Shown: positions 18,595-36,272, numbered from the stretch's first letter. The stretch is 36,272 nt of DNA from Lentisphaera araneosa HTCC2155 (GCA_945877655.1 CAMCSH010000005.1:1-36272), one strand, 5' to 3'. Translations and numbers: made by a program. Notes: generated from the letters alone by a model not told the origin.

Positions 18595-21500
18595 TCACTC
18601 CCCGCTGAAGAAGTGCACTTCGCTGAGCTCGCCCTTGCGGCCGCCGGCAGCCGCGACGAGGCGGATCTGCTGGTAGCTTCCGGGGAGGAGGAAGACGAGG
18701 CCGCCGTTGCTGTCCGGGGAGATGCGGACCCAAGCGCCTTGATTGAAGGCTTCGAAGTAGACTTCGCCGCCGCCTTTTTTCAGGACAAAGGCGCGCTTCA
18801 CCGACACCGGCGTCGGGAAGCTCCAGGTGGCCAACGGAGTCACCACGTCGGCCTTCGGCACTTCCACCGAGCTGTCGGGATTCCAGTCGGAAATCGCCTT
18901 CAGATCGGCGCTCAGCGCGTCGTTCTTCAGGGTCGCGCCGGCAGGCTCGTCGAAGCGCGGGTTGCGCACCGCGACGGTGTGGATCGGGACGACGCGCCAA
19001 GGCTGGATCTCGAGCGCGAATTCGGCGCGGACGCCCTTGAGGAGCTGGAAGTCGCCGCCTTCGTCGGGCTTGTAAGTCCGGTTGTTCCACAGCAGGCTGA
19101 TGCGGTCGCCTTCGCGCGGCACCGAGACGGTGTCGATCAGGCCGCCGCCGCTGATGCGGAAGGCGAGGCTGTGGCGGAGGTGGTCGCGGTCGACCGTGCC
19201 CGGGACCCAGAAGACGCGGTTGTTGAGGACGTCGTCGGGCCAGTGGAGATCGCGTTCGTAGCGGTAGGCCTTGCCGCCAATCTGGTAGTCGAAGATGGCG
19301 TGGAAGCTCATCGGCGCGGCATCGGTGGCGAGCTCGATCTTCTCTTGGCGGACATTGGCGCCGAGGGAGGCGTCGTAGCCCTTGGCGCCGAGCTCGAGGA
19401 CGAGATCGTTCTTGACGACTTTGTGCGAGGGATCCTGGAAGGTGATCTTGCCGGTGAGACGGTAGGGGCTGTTGAGCTCGGCGTCTTTGCCGGTGTCGAG
19501 ATCTTCGGCGAAGGGATGCGTGCTCATCAGGCGCAATTCCTCGCACAGCTTGGCGCCGCGGGGGCGGACGAAGTCGATGCGGTGGTCAACGCCGAGGGTC
19601 AGCTCGATCAACTGTGCCTTGGTGCTGGGATTGAGCGGCGACGACTCGACCGCCTTGAGCAGCTCGGGAGCGGCCTTGGAGACGATGGCGAAAATGCGGC
19701 TGCGCATCTTTTCGCCTTCGGATTTTTCCAGATTGCGGAGAGCGCTGATGCTGGCGCCCAGGGAGGCGGGCGCGCTGGAGCCGAGCTGCTGGCGGAGGAT
19801 CTCGTAGCGGGTGGTCCAGGCGAGCCAGACGCGGTGATCGGCGTCGGTGAGTTTCGGCAGGGAGTAGTGCGTCGAGGGGAAGAGGTCGGGACGTCCGGTG
19901 ATGGCGAGTTTTTTCTTCGGCGCATTGAGGAAGATCAGCATGGTGCTGGCTCGGAAGAGGTCGTTCATGACCTCTTCGGCGCCCATGTATTCGAGCGGCT
20001 CGGAGTTCCAGCAGAAGCCGCCGTCGAAGCGTCGCGTGATGGCGATCTGCCAGCCGAAGCGGCGAGCGAACTCGGCGTAGGCCTTGTCGTCACTGCAGGC
20101 GATGCCGATGGTCGAGCCGAAGAGCGAGAAGGTCTTGGTGGCGTGGCCCTGGTCGCCGGAGCCGAGGGTGCGCTCGCAGTAGTGGGCGGTGCATTCCTTG
20201 ATGAAGTGGGCCGGACCGCCATGCAGACGGGCCGCGACGAGATAGGCGCCGCCGCGAGCGCCGTAAGCGCCGCCCTTGTCGATGTCGGTAAACTTGCCGC
20301 CGCCGCGGGTATAAGGGACGTCGCCGTCGGGCGCCATCTGCTGCACCCGCCAGAGCATTTTCTCGAGCAGCTCGGGGCGACCCTTGGCGGGGGTCTTTTC
20401 AAGCAGAGCGAGGGCGAGGCAGAGCTGCGAACCGCCGTAGTTGATGCCGCCGTCGTCGTAGCCCGGGTTGGCGCCGTGGCCGGAGGTGTAGTCGCCGTAG
20501 ATGAAGCGGGCGAGGCCGTCGCCGGACATCCGCAGGAAAGGCAGGACGCTGTCGTCCTGGGTGCGCAGCCAATATTCACAAACGGCAATGACGCTGAAGG
20601 AACTCGCCGCGCTCCAGCCGTCGAAATTAGTGTTGTCGCAGAGGTGCTTCACCGCCTTTTTCACCGCCGGCAGGACGGTGTCGTCGCCGGTGGACATCAG
20701 GGCGAGGCAGCAGATGCCGGTGTCCATCAGGTCGCTGCAATAGCCGGCGCGGCGGGGCCAGGAGCCGTCGGGACGCTGCTGCTTCAGGATCCACTCGGTG
20801 TTCATCGCGGTGATGGTGTCGGTCTTCGGCGAGGTGACGGCAGGGAAACCGCTGGCGAAGCTGCCGATGGCGGGGAGCTTGAGGGCGATCTCCTGGCGCA
20901 GTGCCGACAAGGCGGCGGGCAGCGGCAGTTTCGGCAAGACGCTGATCTTGCACGAGGCCGCAGCGCAAAACAGTCCGCCACGCAGCTTCCAGGCGCCTTC
21001 CGGCAGGAGATAGGTTTCGTTCTGCTCGCCGTGTTTGGCGGGAGTCTTGAGATTGCTCAACGGGATGCGGCGACCCTCGGCGTTTTCGAGGACGAGTTGA
21101 TTCATCGCGACGCGGCTTTTCGGTGGCAGCTCGAGGCGCAGTTCCTGGCCGGCGGGCAGGGCCAGATCGGCATTGAAGTCGGCATCCGGTCCGCCGCTGA
21201 GGGTGAAGTCGATGTCCTGGCAGTAGGCGACCCGAATGCCGGTGGCTTCGAGGCGGACGCAGCCGGGCGGAACGGCGTAGGTGATCGCGGTGGCGACGTG
21301 CGAGGCGATGGCGTGATCGAGAGTTTCCTTCTGCCAGGTGAGGGGATCGCTGGCGCTGGCGCGGCGGATCGAGCCATAGCCGGTGCTGGCGCTCAGCCAT
21401 TCCGACTGAGACAGGTCGATGCTGCTGCCGTCGGCCTTGACCAGGCGCGGATTCTTCCACAGGATCGAGCCGCCGTGGATCTCGCCGCGGCAAGTCGCCT

Positions 21501-22539
21501 CGAGTGTGGCGAATCGGGCGCCGGCAGGCAGGTTCAGGCTGAGGGGCATCTCGGTCTTGTCCTTGCCGGTGAAGGCGGTGACCGAGGCATTGGCGCTGCG
21601 CTTCAATTCACCGGCGGAAATCCAATTGTTGACCGGTGCCTTGACCTGGACTTGTTGCAGCCCGCGCAGCACTTCCAGCCGGATCGAACCACGGCCTTCG
21701 GCCCGGTCGATGAGCCAGCCGGCATGCATCGCCAGGGAGCGGGCATCCTTGGTCTTATAAGCCGTCTCCGGCTCGATCAGCAAGGCGTCTTTAAGCGCTT
21801 CGCCGTCCATGCCGATGATCACGTCGCCGACTTTCACCAGTCCCTCGGCGGGCGAACCTTTCATCACTTCGACGACTTCCAGACCGTCGCGGAAAATGCG
21901 GCCCTCGCTGTCCTTGAGGGCGGCGGGATAATGGGCGTCAAAACCCGGGTGGCGCTGCCACAGCTTGTTGATCGCGGTGCAGCGCAGGCCGAGGGGGCCG
22001 AGCGAGGTGACCCAGCGCTTGGCGCAGTCGATGTTTTCAGGCTCCATGGTGCTGAAGCCCGGGCCGCCGGCGTAGGTGCCCGGCCAGGCCTTGTAGTCAG
22101 CGACGGCGGGCTTGCCGGCGAGGGGCGGCACGACGATTTCAGGCAAAGGCGACAGGTAGAAGCCGCTGGCGAAACGCGGGCCGACAGGGGCGATTTTTGC
22201 GGTTTCCGCAAGAGGAGCCGAACTCAGTCCGGCGGCGTCGCTCTTGACCTCGGCTGCAGCGGCTTGAGCCCGCTTCATCAGATAGCCGCCGATACCGGCG
22301 GTGAAGAGCGCCAGGGCGACGAAGGGCCAGATGATCAAGGGTCGCCGTTTGATTTCGCGGTCGCGGATTTTCGGTGCTGGTTTGGCGGTGAATTTCGGCC
22401 GCGACTCGCCCGGCGGCGCGGCTTCCGGCGGCGGCGCCTCGATCTGAAACTTCTGGCCGCAAGGGCACTGGATCTTCACCGGCAGGGCGGCGTCGCCGAT
22501 GTCGAAGTTCTGTTGGCAGACCGGGCAGGAGACTTTCAT
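18595..22539 (-). CDS. giant membrane-anchored protein: zinc ribbon, PDZ and cyclase-like helical toroid (DUF6288-like)
   Basis: A 1314-aa protein. Residues 1-35 carry a small zinc ribbon (CPVCQQNF with Cys5 and Cys8, CPCGQKF with Cys25 and Cys27). A proline-rich linker leads to one TM helix at about 66-88. Residues about 220-290 look like a PDZ domain (GLEVVEVMKGSPAEGLVKVGDVIIGMDGEAL). Residues about 575-900 contain terpenoid-cyclase/prenyltransferase-type helical repeats (WILKQQRPDGSWPRRAGYC, DTGICCLALMSTGDDTVLP), a pattern I associate with DUF6288 proteins. The C-terminal 300 residues are beta-rich and end in a discoidin-like segment (VKRAFVLKKGGGEVYFEAFNQGAWVRI). I chose the Met just before KVSCPVC; an in-frame Met nine codons earlier is possible. 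The topology suggests a cytoplasmic zinc ribbon and a large extracytoplasmic part. The function is unknown. Confidence 0.8.
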   Translation of the reverse strand: MKVSCPVCQQNFDIGDAALPVKIQCPCGQKFQIEAPPPEAAPPGESRPKFTAKPAPKIRDREIKRRPLIIWPFVALALFTAGIGGYLMKRAQAAAAEVKSDAAGLSSAPLAETAKIAPVGPRFASGFYLSPLPEIVVPPLAGKPAVADYKAWPGTYAGGPGFSTMEPENIDCAKRWVTSLGPLGLRCTAINKLWQRHPGFDAHYPAALKDSEGRIFRDGLEVVEVMKGSPAEGLVKVGDVIIGMDGEALKDALLIEPETAYKTKDARSLAMHAGWLIDRAEGRGSIRLEVLRGLQQVQVKAPVNNWISAGELKRSANASVTAFTGKDKTEMPLSLNLPAGARFATLEATCRGEIHGGSILWKNPRLVKADGSSIDLSQSEWLSASTGYGSIRRASASDPLTWQKETLDHAIASHVATAITYAVPPGCVRLEATGIRVAYCQDIDFTLSGGPDADFNADLALPAGQELRLELPPKSRVAMNQLVLENAEGRRIPLSNLKTPAKHGEQNETYLLPEGAWKLRGGLFCAAASCKISVLPKLPLPAALSALRQEIALKLPAIGSFASGFPAVTSPKTDTITAMNTEWILKQQRPDGSWPRRAGYCSDLMDTGICCLALMSTGDDTVLPAVKKAVKHLCDNTNFDGWSAASSFSVIAVCEYWLRTQDDSVLPFLRMSGDGLARFIYGDYTSGHGANPGYDDGGINYGGSQLCLALALLEKTPAKGRPELLEKMLWRVQQMAPDGDVPYTRGGGKFTDIDKGGAYGARGGAYLVAARLHGGPAHFIKECTAHYCERTLGSGDQGHATKTFSLFGSTIGIACSDDKAYAEFARRFGWQIAITRRFDGGFCWNSEPLEYMGAEEVMNDLFRASTMLIFLNAPKKKLAITGRPDLFPSTHYSLPKLTDADHRVWLAWTTRYEILRQQLGSSAPASLGASISALRNLEKSEGEKMRSRIFAIVSKAAPELLKAVESSPLNPSTKAQLIELTLGVDHRIDFVRPRGAKLCEELRLMSTHPFAEDLDTGKDAELNSPYRLTGKITFQDPSHKVVKNDLVLELGAKGYDASLGANVRQEKIELATDAAPMSFHAIFDYQIGGKAYRYERDLHWPDDVLNNRVFWVPGTVDRDHLRHSLAFRISGGGLIDTVSVPREGDRISLLWNNRTYKPDEGGDFQLLKGVRAEFALEIQPWRVVPIHTVAVRNPRFDEPAGATLKNDALSADLKAISDWNPDSSVEVPKADVVTPLATWSFPTPVSVKRAFVLKKGGGEVYFEAFNQGAWVRISPDSNGGLVFLLPGSYQQIRLVAAAGGRKGELSEVHFFSGE

Positions 22540-22617
22540 GACGGGGATCTCGAGGTTGAAGTGCATTTTGCGAAGCCTATCATCGGCAGATGATAAAGAT
22601 GGTCTTGTGTTCCCTCT

Positions 22618-22642
22618 GAATGTCGAATGTGACGAATGCGAC
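22618..22642. repeat. tandem GAATGYGAC words in a divergent intergenic region
   Basis: Between the 1314-aa gene (minus) and the ATPase gene (plus), GAATGTGAC and GAATGCGAC lie end to end (22625-22642) after a partial GAATGTC (22618-22624). Spacing of 9 bp is close to one helical turn, so a regulator site is possible. It is only a suggestion. Confidence 0.3.
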
Positions 22643-22722
22643 ATGATTTTCATCGGCAAAGACAAGTGCGGGTGAAAAGTTGAAGGACAACTAGTTTTGG
22701 CTTAAAGCCCCAGGAAGCCGCC

Positions 22723-29051: not shown

Positions 29052-31493
29052 ATGATGATGAAGCGCCTTTCAGCCACTGCCCTTCTCGTACTCAGTGCTT
29101 CGGCTTGCCGCAGCCATGACAAGGCCGCAGCCAACTCGGCTAACCCCGAAGTTCCCGCCACCTATCCCGCCAAAGTTGTGGATGTCCGCGACATTGAGTT
29201 CATGACCCCGGCAGAACGCGATGCCAAGCTCGGCATCGACTGGCGTAACAACCGCGCCATCTCGCAGCACCTCACTCCCGACGTTCAGGTAGAGCTCGAC
29301 ATGAGCCAAAGCCGTGAAATCGTCCTCAACTACGAGAAGCAGTTCGCCCTCACCGTCAAGGCCGTCTCGGCCCGCGGCCAAGGCACCGTTTCGATCGGCT
29401 CGAAGTGGGCCAAGGTCGGCGATGTCATCGACTTCGAAGCCCTGGAAGACAACGGCGCCCGCTTCACCGGTTGGGAAGGCGATATCGATGGCGATGGCGT
29501 CAAGGTCGACGGCAAGAAGATCTCGGTCAAGATGGACCGTCCCCGCAACATCCGCGCACTCTTCACCGCGACGAAGGCCGAGCTCGCCTTCTCCAGTGAA
29601 TTCGGCGCCCCCAAAGGCGGCGGCATCTACGAACTCGGCCAGGAAGTCGAGTGGAGCGTCACCTCTCCCTGGCCGGTCAGCGCAGGCGTCCAGATGGTCG
29701 CCACCACCCCTTCCAGCAAAATCAAGCTCGACGCCGATGCCAAAGCCGATCCCGGCTGGAAGCGCCAGGTGCGCGTTGCCGCCTCCAGCGCCGACATCGT
29801 CTCGGGCTCGACCCAAGGCAGCGATGGCTGGGTCGACGCCGACAGCGAAATCTCGGTCAATGCCGTTCCCGCCGATGAATCCTATGGCTTCATCAAGTGG
29901 GATGGCGTGCCTGCCGCCGTCGCCACGCAAAATCCTCTCAAGCTGAAAGTCGACCAGCCGATCAGCCCGATCGCGGTCTTCGAGAAGCAGAAATTCCGCC
30001 TTGCCGTCCTCACCGAATTCGGCAAGATCAACGGCGACGGCCTGCACCCGAAAGACCAGCCTGTCACCTGGTCGGTCGAAACCCCGGTCGAAATCGCTCC
30101 CGGCATCCGCAAGGTCGCCCGCAACGCCGGCGGCACTGTCAAGATGAACACCAACAAGACCTACCGCATCGAATGGGACACTGAAGTCCTCCTCGAAGTG
30201 GCGAAGAAGACCGCCGCCGGCGAAGTCGTCGTCCGCCACGAATGGGTCCCGGCCGGCAAAATGATCAAAGGCATCACCGTCGAACGCACCAAAGACGAAG
30301 CCGCCACCATCGCCCTCTGGGAAGGCACGGTCGAGCGCAATCTCGCCCGTTTAGAAAAACTCGACCTGAAGATGGACCGCCCCCGCCGCCTCGTCGCCAA
30401 CTTCACTCCCGAGCCCAGCACCTTGCTGGCCAAGAGCGAAGGCCAGGTCATCGTCGAGAAGAAGACCTTCAAGCCCGAAGACACCAAAGAGCTCATTCCC
30501 GGCACTCAGTACGCCAGCGCCGTCGAACGCGGCGTTCTGGTTCGCCCCGACCTCGAGAAGCAGCTCGGCAAAGGCGACAAGATCGCCGCCGCCGAAGTCA
30601 ACGTCCTCGAAGGCCAAGCCGCCCGCATCGACACCGGCATCGCCTACGCTGGCTGGAAGAACTGCGTCCGGATGCGCAATGAATACGCCGAGCTGATCAT
30701 CGCCCCCGATATCGGCCGCGTCGTCTACTTCGGCTCCCCCGACGACAGCAGCAACCTGCTCTGGCTTAATGAAGACCTGAAAGGCAAGACCTTCACCCGC
30801 GATGACGCGGCCAAGGCCTACAACGATGTCGGCGGCTCGCGCGTCAACGTCGCCCCCGCCGAAGTCGTCCTGCCCCTCACCGGCAAGGCCTTCCCCCAGC
30901 CTTACGAGATCGACGGCTCGGCCTGCAAGGTCATCCTCGGCGCCAACAAAGTGGTCACCCAGACCTACCCCGAGAAAGCCACCGGCTGCTTCGTCGAGCG
31001 CACCTTCGTCCTGGTGAAGAACAAGCTCCATGTCCACACCGCCTTGGTCGGCATCACCGATCTGAAGCATGACTACTCGGTCGGCCCGCAGACCTTCACC
31101 CAGTTCATCCGTCCCCAGAAGGTTCTCTTCGGCCGTTCGGAAGACCGTGTCGGCCACCCCGCCGGCTACGCCATCCTGAAAGGCACCCCGCCTGAAATCG
31201 TCAAGGATGACGAAGGTCGCATGGCCTTCCCCTTCCCGGAGCAGGCCGCCAGGGAATGGCGCATCGGCACCTATTCGGACTACATCCAGATGGAGTTCAA
31301 GGACTACATCGTCACCGCCAAGGCGATCTACAAGAAAGGCGAAGAGTTCAACGAGCAGAACACCAACCTGCAGCTCTTCTGCCCCGAGAACCCCGTCGAC
31401 TGCATCGAAATCGGCCAGTCCGGCTCGCTCGCCAAGCTGTCCAAAGATTCTCAGACCACCTCTGAAATCATCTGGATCCTGGAAAAGCGCTGA
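29052..31493 (+). CDS. large lipoprotein with InlB-like repeats and a C-terminal mutarotase-like domain
   Basis: An 813-aa predicted lipoprotein: signal peptide MMMKRLSATALLVLSASAC with a lipobox-like SASAC. Residues about 95-460 hold repeats of the divergent InlB B-repeat type (RFTGWEGDIDGDGVKVDGK...MDRPRNIRALFT, then GFIKWDGV...VDQPISPIAVFE, then ALWEGTV...MDRPRRLVANFT). The F-x-x-W-x-G...A-x-F pattern is clear in each. Residues about 535-800 (EYAELIIAPDIGRVVYFGSPD, QTYPEKATGCFVERTFVLV) look like a galactose-mutarotase/DUF4380-type beta-sandwich, suggesting carbohydrate contact. Three ATG codons in a row start the gene; the first follows AGGGAG. It forms its own unit with a promoter at 28948 and a terminator at 31511. 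Codon choice is strongly biased to C-ending codons, which fits high expression. Function unknown. Confidence 0.78.
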   Translation: MMMKRLSATALLVLSASACRSHDKAAANSANPEVPATYPAKVVDVRDIEFMTPAERDAKLGIDWRNNRAISQHLTPDVQVELDMSQSREIVLNYEKQFALTVKAVSARGQGTVSIGSKWAKVGDVIDFEALEDNGARFTGWEGDIDGDGVKVDGKKISVKMDRPRNIRALFTATKAELAFSSEFGAPKGGGIYELGQEVEWSVTSPWPVSAGVQMVATTPSSKIKLDADAKADPGWKRQVRVAASSADIVSGSTQGSDGWVDADSEISVNAVPADESYGFIKWDGVPAAVATQNPLKLKVDQPISPIAVFEKQKFRLAVLTEFGKINGDGLHPKDQPVTWSVETPVEIAPGIRKVARNAGGTVKMNTNKTYRIEWDTEVLLEVAKKTAAGEVVVRHEWVPAGKMIKGITVERTKDEAATIALWEGTVERNLARLEKLDLKMDRPRRLVANFTPEPSTLLAKSEGQVIVEKKTFKPEDTKELIPGTQYASAVERGVLVRPDLEKQLGKGDKIAAAEVNVLEGQAARIDTGIAYAGWKNCVRMRNEYAELIIAPDIGRVVYFGSPDDSSNLLWLNEDLKGKTFTRDDAAKAYNDVGGSRVNVAPAEVVLPLTGKAFPQPYEIDGSACKVILGANKVVTQTYPEKATGCFVERTFVLVKNKLHVHTALVGITDLKHDYSVGPQTFTQFIRPQKVLFGRSEDRVGHPAGYAILKGTPPEIVKDDEGRMAFPFPEQAAREWRIGTYSDYIQMEFKDYIVTAKAIYKKGEEFNEQNTNLQLFCPENPVDCIEIGQSGSLAKLSKDSQTTSEIIWILEKR

Positions 31494-32611: not shown

Positions 32612-34570
32612 CTAGTCCTCGCCGCGATTTCTAGGCGCTTCCCAGATCGCTGCGGCGAGGTGGACGTCGCCATTGCTGATCAGAGGACGGGCCATTTTCT
32701 TCTGATTGTCGCTCAGCTTGTGGTGCCACAGATGCAGGCTGAGTTGATGCAGGGCGATGGAGGCGAGGACGCGGGGTTTGGCGCTTTGACGGAAGATGGT
32801 TTCGAAGATTCGGGTGAAGCGGTAATAGAAGCTGTCGTAGATGCCGCGGGCGTTGACGAGGAGGCCGAGTGCGAGCAGATAGAATACGGTGGGTTCCAAG
32901 CGATCAAATCTATGGAGTTTGTCAGAGAGATCCGCAAGGAAAGCCATGGTTTGAATTGCGGTCTGCAGTGAGAAGAAAGCCAGAAAACTGAGCTTGAACG
33001 AAGGGACAAGTGCCTGGATCCAGTTGCGGCAGGTCTCGGAATATTGATAGCCCAGGGCGATGAAAATAATGGCAGCGAACAAGCTGAAGGAGATGAATTC
33101 TGACCAGGAATGACCAGCAGGGCCGCTTTTTTCGTAGCCCATAATGAAGATGGCCATCAGGCCGCAGGCAAGGCCTAGAATTTTTTGCCATAGTTCACGC
33201 AAAGGATTAGCCTGCCAGAAACTTTTGAGTAATGGGATCAAGGAGCTGGCGCGCCAGTGCTCCTTGACTCTTTGAACTACCAGCGGGGCTAGGTAGAACC
33301 ACAAAGCCCCGATGGTGACGAGCCAGAAGGGCAAGGCTTCCGTCGAGTGGAATTGAGTGGAGAGAAACCAGAGGAGCCCGGCGAGCAAAGGAATGGTGAC
33401 CAGGGTGAGATAATGCAGGAACTCGGCGCTGCCTGAACGGATTCCCAGCAAGACCTGCCGTTCCGGTGGCGCGCTCTGGCCGCCGCGCAGATTGCGGCTG
33501 CGGAAGCTGAGCAGACGGCTGGCGGGGAGGAAGAGATCGGATGGGGGTAAAAGCGGCTTGGCGTTCTCTGGGCGTTGCAGGAGGAGTTGGCGGAGATCGT
33601 GGCGGCTGAGGTGCAATTCCGTCAAATCGTGGCGACCCCAGGCTGCGAAGAAATCGAGGAGGCGTCGTGCGGCGGGATCGTCGGTTTTTTCGAGTTCATC
33701 TTGGATCTGAGGCAGCTGCTCGAGGTCGCTGGCGAAACCTTGCAGGGAGGGGCCCCAGATCTGTTCGTAAAACGAGGTCTGGAGGCGGATCCAAGCGGCA
33801 GGCAGGGCGGGGCCGAAACGCATCAGCACTTCGAGGACAAAGGAGGCTTCTTCTTGGTGGGCTTTGCCGTGGGCACGGTGGAGGAAGCGGTCGAGCAAGG
33901 GGCAGAGATTGGCGGCGGGCGCGACTTCGAAGGCATACATCCAGAAGGCGTGGCAGCGGCGGAGGAAATCGGCGTGGTGATGCAGGGTGAGGAGTTCGAC
34001 GCAAAGGGCTTCGACTTCGCGTGCTTGCCACTGGCGGCGCAGCTCGATCAGGAGGGCGTGCCAGAGCTCGGGATCGTCGGCGTGGTGACGCAGGGCTTCG
34101 ATCAGGGTGCGAGCGAAAAGCGCCGGCTCATCGGGATTCTGCGCTTCCCGCAAAGCGGCGAGGAGGAGCCAGTCTCGAGGCTCGAGTCGTCCGAGTTTCT
34201 CTATTTCGGCGAGGGTGGTTTCGACCCCGATTTCGTGCAGCCTAGCGGTCCAATCCAAGCTCGGGGCGGACGGGAAATCGGGGCGCAGACGCGTCGGGGT
34301 TTCGGATTCAGAAGCCGCGGCCGCGGCTTCCGGGCTGCGAAGAAAATGAGCTTGGTCGAGATCGATTGGCGGTGCCTCGAGTTTGAACTCATGTTCCAGC
34401 TCTTCGAAGGCGCGGCGGATCTTCTTGAATTCACTCGGAAATTTGTCCGGCTTCCAGGTCTTGATGAGCCGGGCGTAGGCCCGTTTCAGATCGGTCAAAG
34501 TGGCATCAGCCACGAGGCCGAAAAAGGCGCGCGGATCATCCTCGGCGAGGGACCAGTCGGGGGTGCTCAT
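32612..34570 (-). CDS. membrane protein with a degenerate N-terminal J-domain
   Basis: A 652-aa protein. Residues about 5-65 look like a J-domain (DPRAFFGLVADATLTDLKRAYARLIKTWKPDKFPSEFKKIRRAFEELE), with the helix II / loop / helix III pattern. The catalytic HPD tripeptide, however, is KPD, so stimulation of Hsp70 ATPase is questionable. A middle region of about 300 residues is helical and Leu/Arg-rich. The C-terminal third has about six TM helices (LVTIPLLAGLLWFLS, LVTIGALWFYLAPLVV, ILGLACGLMAIFIMGY, SLFAAIIFIALGYQYS and two more). ATG 34568-34570 is chosen because AGGAG precedes it. It is the last gene of a minus-strand run with a 242-aa membrane protein and an HscC-like Hsp70, resembling the E. 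coli hscC-djlC neighbourhood in kind. Confidence 0.75.
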   Translation of the reverse strand: MSTPDWSLAEDDPRAFFGLVADATLTDLKRAYARLIKTWKPDKFPSEFKKIRRAFEELEHEFKLEAPPIDLDQAHFLRSPEAAAAASESETPTRLRPDFPSAPSLDWTARLHEIGVETTLAEIEKLGRLEPRDWLLLAALREAQNPDEPALFARTLIEALRHHADDPELWHALLIELRRQWQAREVEALCVELLTLHHHADFLRRCHAFWMYAFEVAPAANLCPLLDRFLHRAHGKAHQEEASFVLEVLMRFGPALPAAWIRLQTSFYEQIWGPSLQGFASDLEQLPQIQDELEKTDDPAARRLLDFFAAWGRHDLTELHLSRHDLRQLLLQRPENAKPLLPPSDLFLPASRLLSFRSRNLRGGQSAPPERQVLLGIRSGSAEFLHYLTLVTIPLLAGLLWFLSTQFHSTEALPFWLVTIGALWFYLAPLVVQRVKEHWRASSLIPLLKSFWQANPLRELWQKILGLACGLMAIFIMGYEKSGPAGHSWSEFISFSLFAAIIFIALGYQYSETCRNWIQALVPSFKLSFLAFFSLQTAIQTMAFLADLSDKLHRFDRLEPTVFYLLALGLLVNARGIYDSFYYRFTRIFETIFRQSAKPRVLASIALHQLSLHLWHHKLSDNQKKMARPLISNGDVHLAAAIWEAPRNRGED

Positions 34571-34676
34571 CGAGAATCTCCTGACATTTTTGCCCCAGCG
34601 GGGCAGCAATGGCGACCGAGGACAGCGCTCTGAACGCTTTGTTGGGGCGCAGGACATATCGCTAGATGGGGCTTGC

Positions 34677-35405
34677 TCATCTGGCGCCTGCCGGGGCGGT
34701 CAGTTTGGCGGCATCTAAAGGTTTGGGAGTTGCCTTCAGAAGAGCTGTTTTCGGCTTGGGGCGCGGCCTGATTTCCGGCTGAGTTTCCGGCCAGAAAATC
34801 AGGGCAAGGACAGCGAGGCTGGGGATGAAGATCATGGCAGCTTTGATGTAGACGCCGGCATCGTGCAGGGCTGGTCGAAAAAGCTTTTGCCAGAACCCCA
34901 GGGGCGCCAACTCAGGCAGGAAGCCGAGGAAGCTGGATTCGAGTTGCCACAAGGCCGGGCAGTGACGCTGGACCTGGCGGAGCTGGAGATGGAAATCGAC
35001 CAGGGATGAACCGCGAGTCGAGAAGAATTTATCGATCAGGCGCTGGCGCGATCGGCCGTCGCCGGGGGCGGCGGCGAGGACAATCAGGAAATCCCTGTGC
35101 AGATCGGGCGCCAGGGTCGGGATGCGGCTGACTTCATCGAGATGTGGCTTCAGTTCGCGCAGGCGGGCACGGCAGGGGGCCAAGGCGGGGATGGCCGGCC
35201 ATTTGGCAATTTCGGCTTCGATCTCAGTTTCGCTGAGCAGAGGCAGGCGCTGGATCAGGCCGTCCTGGGACTCGGGCGCCGTGTCGTCATCGGCATCGAC
35301 GCTGCGCAGGGGGAGATTGCGGTCGCGCAGGCGGTGTTGCAGAGCTTCCGTGATGTCGCCCCGGCGGAGGCGTCCGGCGAAGCGGAGGAGCGCCGGCTCA
35401 GCCAT
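34677..35405 (-). CDS. single-pass membrane protein between the Hsp70 and J-like genes
   Basis: A 242-aa protein with a Leu/Arg-rich helical N-terminal 175 residues (ALQHRLRDRNLPLR, CRARLRELKPHLDEV, HLQLRQVQRHCPALWQLE). One TM helix follows near residues 185-207 (YIKAAMIFIPSLAVLALIFW), then a short proline/lysine-rich tail. I recognise no family. ATG 35403-35405 overlaps the Hsp70 stop by 8 bp (ATGGCTGA), so it is translationally coupled. The track's longer version to 35642 is antisense-frame overlap with the Hsp70 gene. Position between a chaperone and a J-like membrane protein suggests a subunit or client of that system, as inference only. Confidence 0.7.
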   Translation of the reverse strand: MAEPALLRFAGRLRRGDITEALQHRLRDRNLPLRSVDADDDTAPESQDGLIQRLPLLSETEIEAEIAKWPAIPALAPCRARLRELKPHLDEVSRIPTLAPDLHRDFLIVLAAAPGDGRSRQRLIDKFFSTRGSSLVDFHLQLRQVQRHCPALWQLESSFLGFLPELAPLGFWQKLFRPALHDAGVYIKAAMIFIPSLAVLALIFWPETQPEIRPRPKPKTALLKATPKPLDAAKLTAPAGAR

Positions 35406-36272
35406 GACCCTCTTCCTCTTGTCGCCAGGGGAGGCCGAGGGATTCGAGGGTGCGGAGCAGGTTGGTGCGGGCTTCGGCGAAGAATTCGCGTTTGCCCGAA
35501 GCCATCGACTGCTCGAAAAGCATGATCGCTCCTTCGAGGGCTTCGCGGCGACGCTGGTCGACTTCGGCGAAGATGCGGTTGCAGTAGCGCAGTAGACGCT
35601 GGTTCTCGGCGTCGTCGCGAGGGTAGAATTTGATCTTGGCAAGACGTTGCATGGCGATGCGCTTGTCGTCCTCCGACAGGCCCTTGGCGTGGTGAGCGAT
35701 GACGGTCTGGTAGCGCTTGCCGGTTTTCGGTACGATCGCCTCGACCTCGAGCAGGCCGCTCATGTCGTAGGAGAAGCGCACCTGCACCTCGGTGGTGTCC
35801 TTGTCGACCGGCAGGCCCTTGACCTCGAGCTTGCCGATGTGAAGGTTGTCCTCGATGCGGCGGCCTTCGCCCTGATAGACTTCGAGATCGACCTGGGTTT
35901 GGCCGGGCTCGCAGGTGCTCACCGATTCCTCGCAAGAAACGGGGATGACGGTGTTGCGGTGGATGATCGGCATGAAGTAGCCGTTTTCGCGACGGCCGTT
36001 GGGGCCAATGCGACGGGAGATTTCGACGCCGAGGGTGAAGGGGCAGACGTCGGTCATCACCATGTCCTCGACCGCCTTGTCGTCGGCGATCAGGGCGGCC
36101 TGGACGGCGGCGCCAAGGGCGACGACGTGGTCGGGGTTGAAACGGCAAAGCGGGTCGCGGCGGAAGTAGTCCTTGACCCATTCCTGGACCAGGGGCGAGC
36201 GGGTGGCGCCGCCGACGAGGACGATGTCGGTGACGGCTTCGGGGCGGAGCTCGGCGTCGCGCAGGGCTCTTG
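35398..36272 (-). CDS. hscC: Hsp70-family chaperone, HscC-like (5' end beyond window)
   Basis: The visible part is the C-terminal about 291 codons. Reading in from the window edge gives DIVLVGGATRSPLVQEWV and NPDHVVALGAAVQAALIAD, the end of the Hsp70 ATPase domain. The substrate-binding beta-domain follows: VMTDVCPFTLGVEI, YFMPIIHRNTVIPVS, and QTQVDLEVYQGEGRRIEDN, then a short helical lid (RRREALEGAIMLFEQSMASGKREFFAEA). The TDVCPFTLGVE and VVALGAAVQA segments and short lid resemble HscC more than DnaK, which carries DVTPLSLGIE here. HscC proteins act in the cytoplasm with membrane-linked J proteins. It is the first visible gene of a three-gene run with the 242-aa and J-like membrane proteins. 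The DnaK-paralogue assignment is by recalled motifs without alignment. Confidence 0.85.
   Translation of the reverse strand, partial: RALRDAELRPEAVTDIVLVGGATRSPLVQEWVKDYFRRDPLCRFNPDHVVALGAAVQAALIADDKAVEDMVMTDVCPFTLGVEISRRIGPNGRRENGYFMPIIHRNTVIPVSCEESVSTCEPGQTQVDLEVYQGEGRRIEDNLHIGKLEVKGLPVDKDTTEVQVRFSYDMSGLLEVEAIVPKTGKRYQTVIAHHAKGLSEDDKRIAMQRLAKIKFYPRDDAENQRLLRYCNRIFAEVDQRRREALEGAIMLFEQSMASGKREFFAEARTNLLRTLESLGLPWRQEEEGHG

Follow-up and report, generated by a model that had tools for sequence, protein, structure and literature searches.

A putative membrane-tethered HscC chaperone system with a K-P-D J-like protein and a conserved third gene in Lentisphaera araneosa

Three consecutive genes of Lentisphaera araneosa HTCC2155, encoding an HscC-type Hsp70, a 242-aa protein with one transmembrane segment (TM), and a 652-aa J-like protein, probably specify a membrane-tethered chaperone system in which HscC is served by a J-like membrane partner and a single-TM adaptor. 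From the genes we infer a biochemical function like that of HscC/DjlC, in a variant form that includes a third, previously undescribed component. The first-pass annotation of this DNA had proposed a membrane-tethered Hsp70 with a non-canonical J-like recruiter, and the gene order, the J fold, and the HscC type of the Hsp70 support that proposal.

The window analyzed here is the whole of contig C5 (36,272 nt), from a genome of 3.9 Mb in 370 contigs. The genes for HscC, the 242-aa protein, and the 652-aa protein follow one another on the minus strand at the right end of the window. The C-terminal 290 codons of hscC are located at 35398–36272 (minus strand), and the product matches Pfam HSP70 with an E value of 1.1e-46. 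The frame (35398–36270, 290 aa) is open at the contig end, and residues 1–292 are found at the end of contig C118 (L009:10859-11734). The two contig ends overlap by 12 bp and the homology is continuous across the junction. The middle gene (34677–35405, minus strand) starts within the 3′ end of hscC, and the 8-bp overlap annotated between the Hsp70 stop and the start of the 242-aa protein is confirmed, with positions 35398–35405 common to both. The J-like gene (32612–34570, minus strand) opens with an ATG at 34570. The 106-bp gap reported between it and the stop of the middle gene agrees with these coordinates, as does the length of 652 aa; with an alternative in-frame start further upstream the protein would be 681 aa long. 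The next gene at the locus, 106 bp further on, encodes an XerC/XerD-like tyrosine recombinase of the phage-integrase type, which lies outside the families conserved around HscC loci. No sigma-70-type promoter site was detected in a promoter scan, which was uninformative. Elsewhere in the window, positions 29052–31493 (plus strand) encode a protein of 813 aa whose N-terminus is lipoprotein-like and which contains a divergent InlB B-repeat domain. Overlapping ORFs of >1300 aa are present on opposite strands at 18613–22593 (plus) and 18595–22665 (minus), and the plus-strand ORF has no Pfam match.

The Hsp70 is of the HscC type. A tree was calculated from 28 HscC sequences, including that of the window, together with E. 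coli DnaK, the genome's own DnaK, and E. coli HscA. The window Hsp70 groups with E. coli HscC in a clade that is split from DnaK/HscA with support of 100/100, which bears out its initial description as HscC-like. It is placed inside a Planctomycetota-type subclade (support 99/97) and is not sister to the HscC of family members G001 and G003; branching within the clade has weak support. This non-sister placement and the patchy distribution described below are compatible with horizontal transfer. The sequence identity is 42% to E. coli HscC and 53% to relatives. When aligned with the genome's own DnaK and E. coli HscC, the window Hsp70 and HscC have in common a deletion in the nucleotide-binding domain (NBD) and a shorter C-terminal region relative to DnaK. 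A signature was observed in the linker region, where T392 (E. coli DnaK numbering) is present in 78 of 78 aligned HscC sequences and C395 in 76 of 78. Both residues appear in the window Hsp70 and neither appears in DnaK or HscA. HscC retains R167, Q378, and P419, which in DnaK contact the J domain, and also D393, and lacks the acidic loop positions 208/211. The ATPase of an HscC-type Hsp70 would be expected to respond to a J protein of the DjlC type rather than to DnaJ, without the need for GrpE.

The 652-aa protein is composed of a J domain (residues ~11–65), a helical TPR-like region (~107–332), and a multi-pass membrane region (~385–578). The N-terminal region, with TWKPDKFPSEF at residues 38–48, is predicted with high confidence to adopt a J fold. 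The single sequence matches Pfam DnaJ weakly (E = 0.0011, below the curated cutoff), and the profile of 35 J-like relatives matches solved J domains in the PDB with an E value of 4.9e-7. The AlphaFold2 model contains helices at residues 25–38 and 45–65 with K40-P41-D42 in the loop between them, and the pLDDT of this block is 93–97. The J-like character first assigned to the N-terminus, and specifically a J fold for residues 5–65, is upheld by the family profile and by this model. A Foldseek search with the full-length model listed weak helical-repeat matches only and no J-domain match, a result that is uninformative for the J domain. The K40-P41-D42 codons (34445–34453, minus strand) occupy the HPD position when the translation is aligned with the KPE of relatives and the HPE of DjlB/DjlC. 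The motif loop is shorter than that of DnaJ, as in DjlB/DjlC (KPDKFPSEF versus HPETDPQGF). As a candidate class C J-domain protein, the 652-aa protein has the predicted J fold and carries KPD (KPE in relatives) instead of HPD. Of about six TMs originally counted, four are found at a strict hydropathy cut and the other two only at a looser cut. The TMs, at least four in number, are well before the C-terminus, and most relatives have two TMs by hydropathy.

The HscC C-terminal profile was used for a single scan of 84,980 species genomes, and the 80 best loci were kept. Of these 80 loci, which come from several phyla, 76 have a J-like gene adjacent to hscC. HPD occurs in 1 of the 82 J-like proteins linked to hscC at the 80 best loci, a tally possibly biased by a search profile trained on non-HPD members, yet the one HPD member (locus L072) was found. 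Most of the others read KPE, HPE, RPD, or RPE. The Planctomycetota-type proteins (n = 28) contain KPE in 23 cases, RPE in 3, and KPD in 2, and the remaining proteins (n = 54) contain HPE (25), RPD (14), RPE (6), KPD (2), NPE (2), HPD (1), QPD (1), or no motif (3). Of the Planctomycetota-type loci, that of Rhodopirellula baltica (L048) has KPD and that of Aeoliella (L040) has KPE. Two J-like genes are present at L043, L051, L061, L079, L081, and L088, and no copy has HPD. HPD is the motif in every one of the 30 other J proteins that were sampled from this genome and from relatives. A non-HPD motif is thus the rule for HscC partners, and the KPD seen here is characteristic of the family rather than of this one genome. 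The premise that HPD is required for J activity does not hold for the HscC-partner family, in which E. coli DjlB and DjlC read HPE. A 2026 review considers HPE, as in DjlB and DjlC, to be seemingly the sole tolerated replacement of HPD; for other deviations, by accident or by selection, the meaning is called unknown (PMC13254874). The motif variation among HscC partners may already be tabulated in the survey of Barriot et al. 2020.

In an alignment of 27 Planctomycetota-type J-like proteins, K40 is present in 25, P41 in 27, and E at position 42 in 25. The K-P-E columns are all within the top 19 of 533 for conservation, which argues for selection and against decay. This conservation, with no sign of drift, bears on an alternative that we regard as unlikely, in which the KPE/KPD J domain is catalytically dead and acts as a membrane anchor or as a brake on HscC, like Pam16 beside Pam18, while another J protein or the client alone stimulates the ATPase. 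Replacing the H of HPD by Q, or its D by N, eliminates activity in all systems that have been tested (PMC8215388), and dead J domains have precedents in the type IV J proteins and Pam16 (PMC13254874). However, an HPD-bearing J-like protein lies beside hscC in only 1 of the 80 best loci, and DjlC, the HPE relative, stimulates HscC when DnaJ, CbpA, and HscB do not (PMC8215388). A motif-less J-like protein at some HscC loci would also fit a dead domain. At L077, L091, and L100 (Proteobacteria), the hscC-adjacent J-like protein has lost a recognizable [HKR]-P-[DE] and kept the rest of the J-like domain, and thus the motif may matter less in the J-like family. A pairing of the Pam16/Pam18 type with an HPD partner in the operon was rejected, as the operon encodes no such partner.

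HscC residues that covary with the first motif position were considered as compensation and rejected, since the top columns follow clades. N170S paired with HPE was rejected for the same reason, and E. coli HscC, which has N170 and HPE partners, breaks the rule. DnaK position 170 is mostly Ser in the HscC proteins with Bacillota HPE partners and Asn in almost all others. The genome to which the window belongs, 92% complete, yielded no canonical DnaJ, probably because of an assembly gap, and the sole J protein over the cutoff is DjlA-like with an HPD motif. Most relatives have a canonical-looking DnaJ.

The conservation of the trio was determined in a survey of 198 genomes of the class, with Hsp70 counted at E <= 1e-170 together with middle-family and full-length J-like proteins. 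Four of the 198 genomes have all three, always as neighbors in one conserved order, and none of the three occurs in any of the other genomes; nine other J-like matches cover the J domain only. The co-occurrence with the adjoining Hsp70 that was to be expected of the 242-aa and 652-aa families is thereby established in this survey. In three relatives, hscC is followed by a 216–218-aa single-TM gene and then by a J-like gene with KPE. Thirty of the 80 best loci are Planctomycetota-type (L022–L051, including one Verrucomicrobiota and one Acidobacteriota record). The middle gene is present in 27 of these 30, all three genes in 25, and a contiguous trio in 24. The predicted conservation of the three-gene order is therefore seen in the three relatives and in 25 of 30 Planctomycetota-type loci. 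The five exceptions are L044, which is cut by a contig end, L029, L034, and L047, which keep one partner, and L025, which keeps neither. L025 is from a Planctomycetaceae MAG in which no J-like or middle gene was detected within 10 kb of hscC, and a nitroreductase-like gene follows directly. The J-like gene of Proteobacteria and Bacillota usually starts a few bases from the hscC stop, and the family HMM did not find the middle gene at the hscC loci of these phyla among the 80 best.

That the trio are neighbors without a shared function, whose order is conserved by hitch-hiking, appears very improbable. The patchy distribution (4 of 198 genomes) suggests horizontal transfer as a block, but the order is kept across Planctomycetota and Verrucomicrobiota, and hscC with the middle gene occurs in one Acidobacteriota genome as well. 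The J-like gene and hscC are also adjacent in Proteobacteria and Bacillota, and the surroundings of the loci contain no further conserved family. Neighbors beyond the trio that might have pointed to a client were looked for, and none is broadly shared. No paper in the literature searched treats the HscC operons of Planctomycetota; a planctomycete sequence is present in the Hsp70 tree of a review (PMC8215388).

The 242-aa protein is helical and, as annotated, has a single TM (residues 185–203). An HMM of the middle family, constructed from 25 proteins with that of the window excluded, scores the window protein at 18.9 bits; the best of 2000 shuffles scores 12.2. The same HMM detects the proteins of L027, L028, L029, and L047 (Acidobacteriota), all outside the training set, and a second copy in L051, where the middle gene is duplicated as well as the J-like gene. 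The window protein is very divergent, with 12–19% identity to its family. No convincing relative of the family was found in Pfam, NCBIfam, or PDB sequences. AlphaFold2 predicts helices throughout and one TM (mean pLDDT 74.6); this model has no fold match among PDB structures, and the protein shows no J-domain match. Assignment to any known Pfam, NCBIfam, PDB-sequence, or PDB-fold relative was rejected as unsupported by these searches. DUF1266 (YbeR/YbeU) was rejected as well, with no Pfam match for the window protein and scores below zero for YbeR/YbeU. Because the middle gene is confined to the 4 of 198 genomes that also carry hscC and the J-like gene, the sequence data support its assignment as a dedicated component of Planctomycetota/Verrucomicrobiota HscC operons, in line with the extra subunit first postulated. 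A function as a nucleotide exchange factor for HscC, in place of an adaptor, is quite improbable. The helical domain with a TM, the start overlapping hscC, and the co-inheritance with hscC are what such a factor might display, but HscC is thought to need none (PMC8215388), the protein resembles no solved fold or Pfam family, and the gene is missing from the HscC systems of Proteobacteria and Bacillota.

Previously, D35 of DnaJ was shown to contact R167 and Q378 of DnaK, and H33 to hydrogen-bond with the linker backbone; DjlB and DjlC are tail-anchored membrane proteins (PMC8215388). In the mechanism proposed for the membrane-tethered system, the J domain of the 652-aa protein would dock on the NBD and linker of HscC and trigger ATP hydrolysis. 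In place of DnaJ D35, D42 (which is E in most relatives) would contact R167 and Q378 of HscC, and K40 (Lys or Arg) would replace the hydrogen bond of H33. The J-like protein would recruit HscC to the membrane, where its helical middle region may bind clients, and the single-TM protein may be a dedicated adaptor in the membrane, holding HscC or the clients close to the J protein. Against this mechanism are the loss of activity on H or D substitution in the systems tested, the three motif-less proteins, the partnerless HscC of L025, and the divergence of a middle protein with no fold match. A bolder reading, possible though we lean somewhat against it, is that HscC operates a rewired J switch. 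The His would not be needed, and selection would have put Lys or Arg in its place as a private activation code isolating HscC from the DnaK network, and the membrane protein would be an obligatory third cofactor in Planctomycetota/Verrucomicrobiota.

HPD is taken to define J proteins and to tolerate almost no change. At HscC loci, where the genetic context is constant and the partner is known, K, R, N, or Q naturally replaces the His in dozens of proteins, and thus the question of accident or selection can be tested. The middle family is a new conserved candidate for a cofactor of Hsp70, and it occurs in bacteria in which HscC seems not to have been studied.

Several known systems may be compared. 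HscA-HscB of iron–sulfur assembly likewise pairs a specialized Hsp70 with a dedicated J protein, but HscB has HPD, and HscA groups with DnaK in the tree, apart from the window Hsp70. As in DnaK-DnaJ, the J domain is expected to dock on the NBD and linker, with R167, Q378, D393, and P419 kept, whereas here HPD is changed, the acidic loop is absent, and the J protein is membrane-bound. Mitochondrial Pam16/Pam18 is a precedent for a membrane-bound J-protein pair in which one motif is degenerate; in contrast, no HPD partner is encoded here and the middle protein lacks a J-domain match. YbeR/YbeU, beside djlB/djlC, also adjoin a J gene and are ~235 aa in length, but they have no similarity to the middle family. 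E. coli DjlB and DjlC differ from the J-like protein in having HPE rather than KPD/KPE and a single C-terminal tail anchor rather than multiple passes, and the full-length proteins, with negative global pairwise scores, have no similarity that could be detected beyond the J domain. In the window, unlike E. coli, the J gene is downstream of hscC on the same strand and a third gene is present. Deletion of djlB and djlC in E. coli is reported to cause sensitivity to Cd2+. The two systems share the same Hsp70 family (T392, C395), adjacent J-protein genes, membrane anchoring, and a J domain whose motif loop is short and does not contain HPD.
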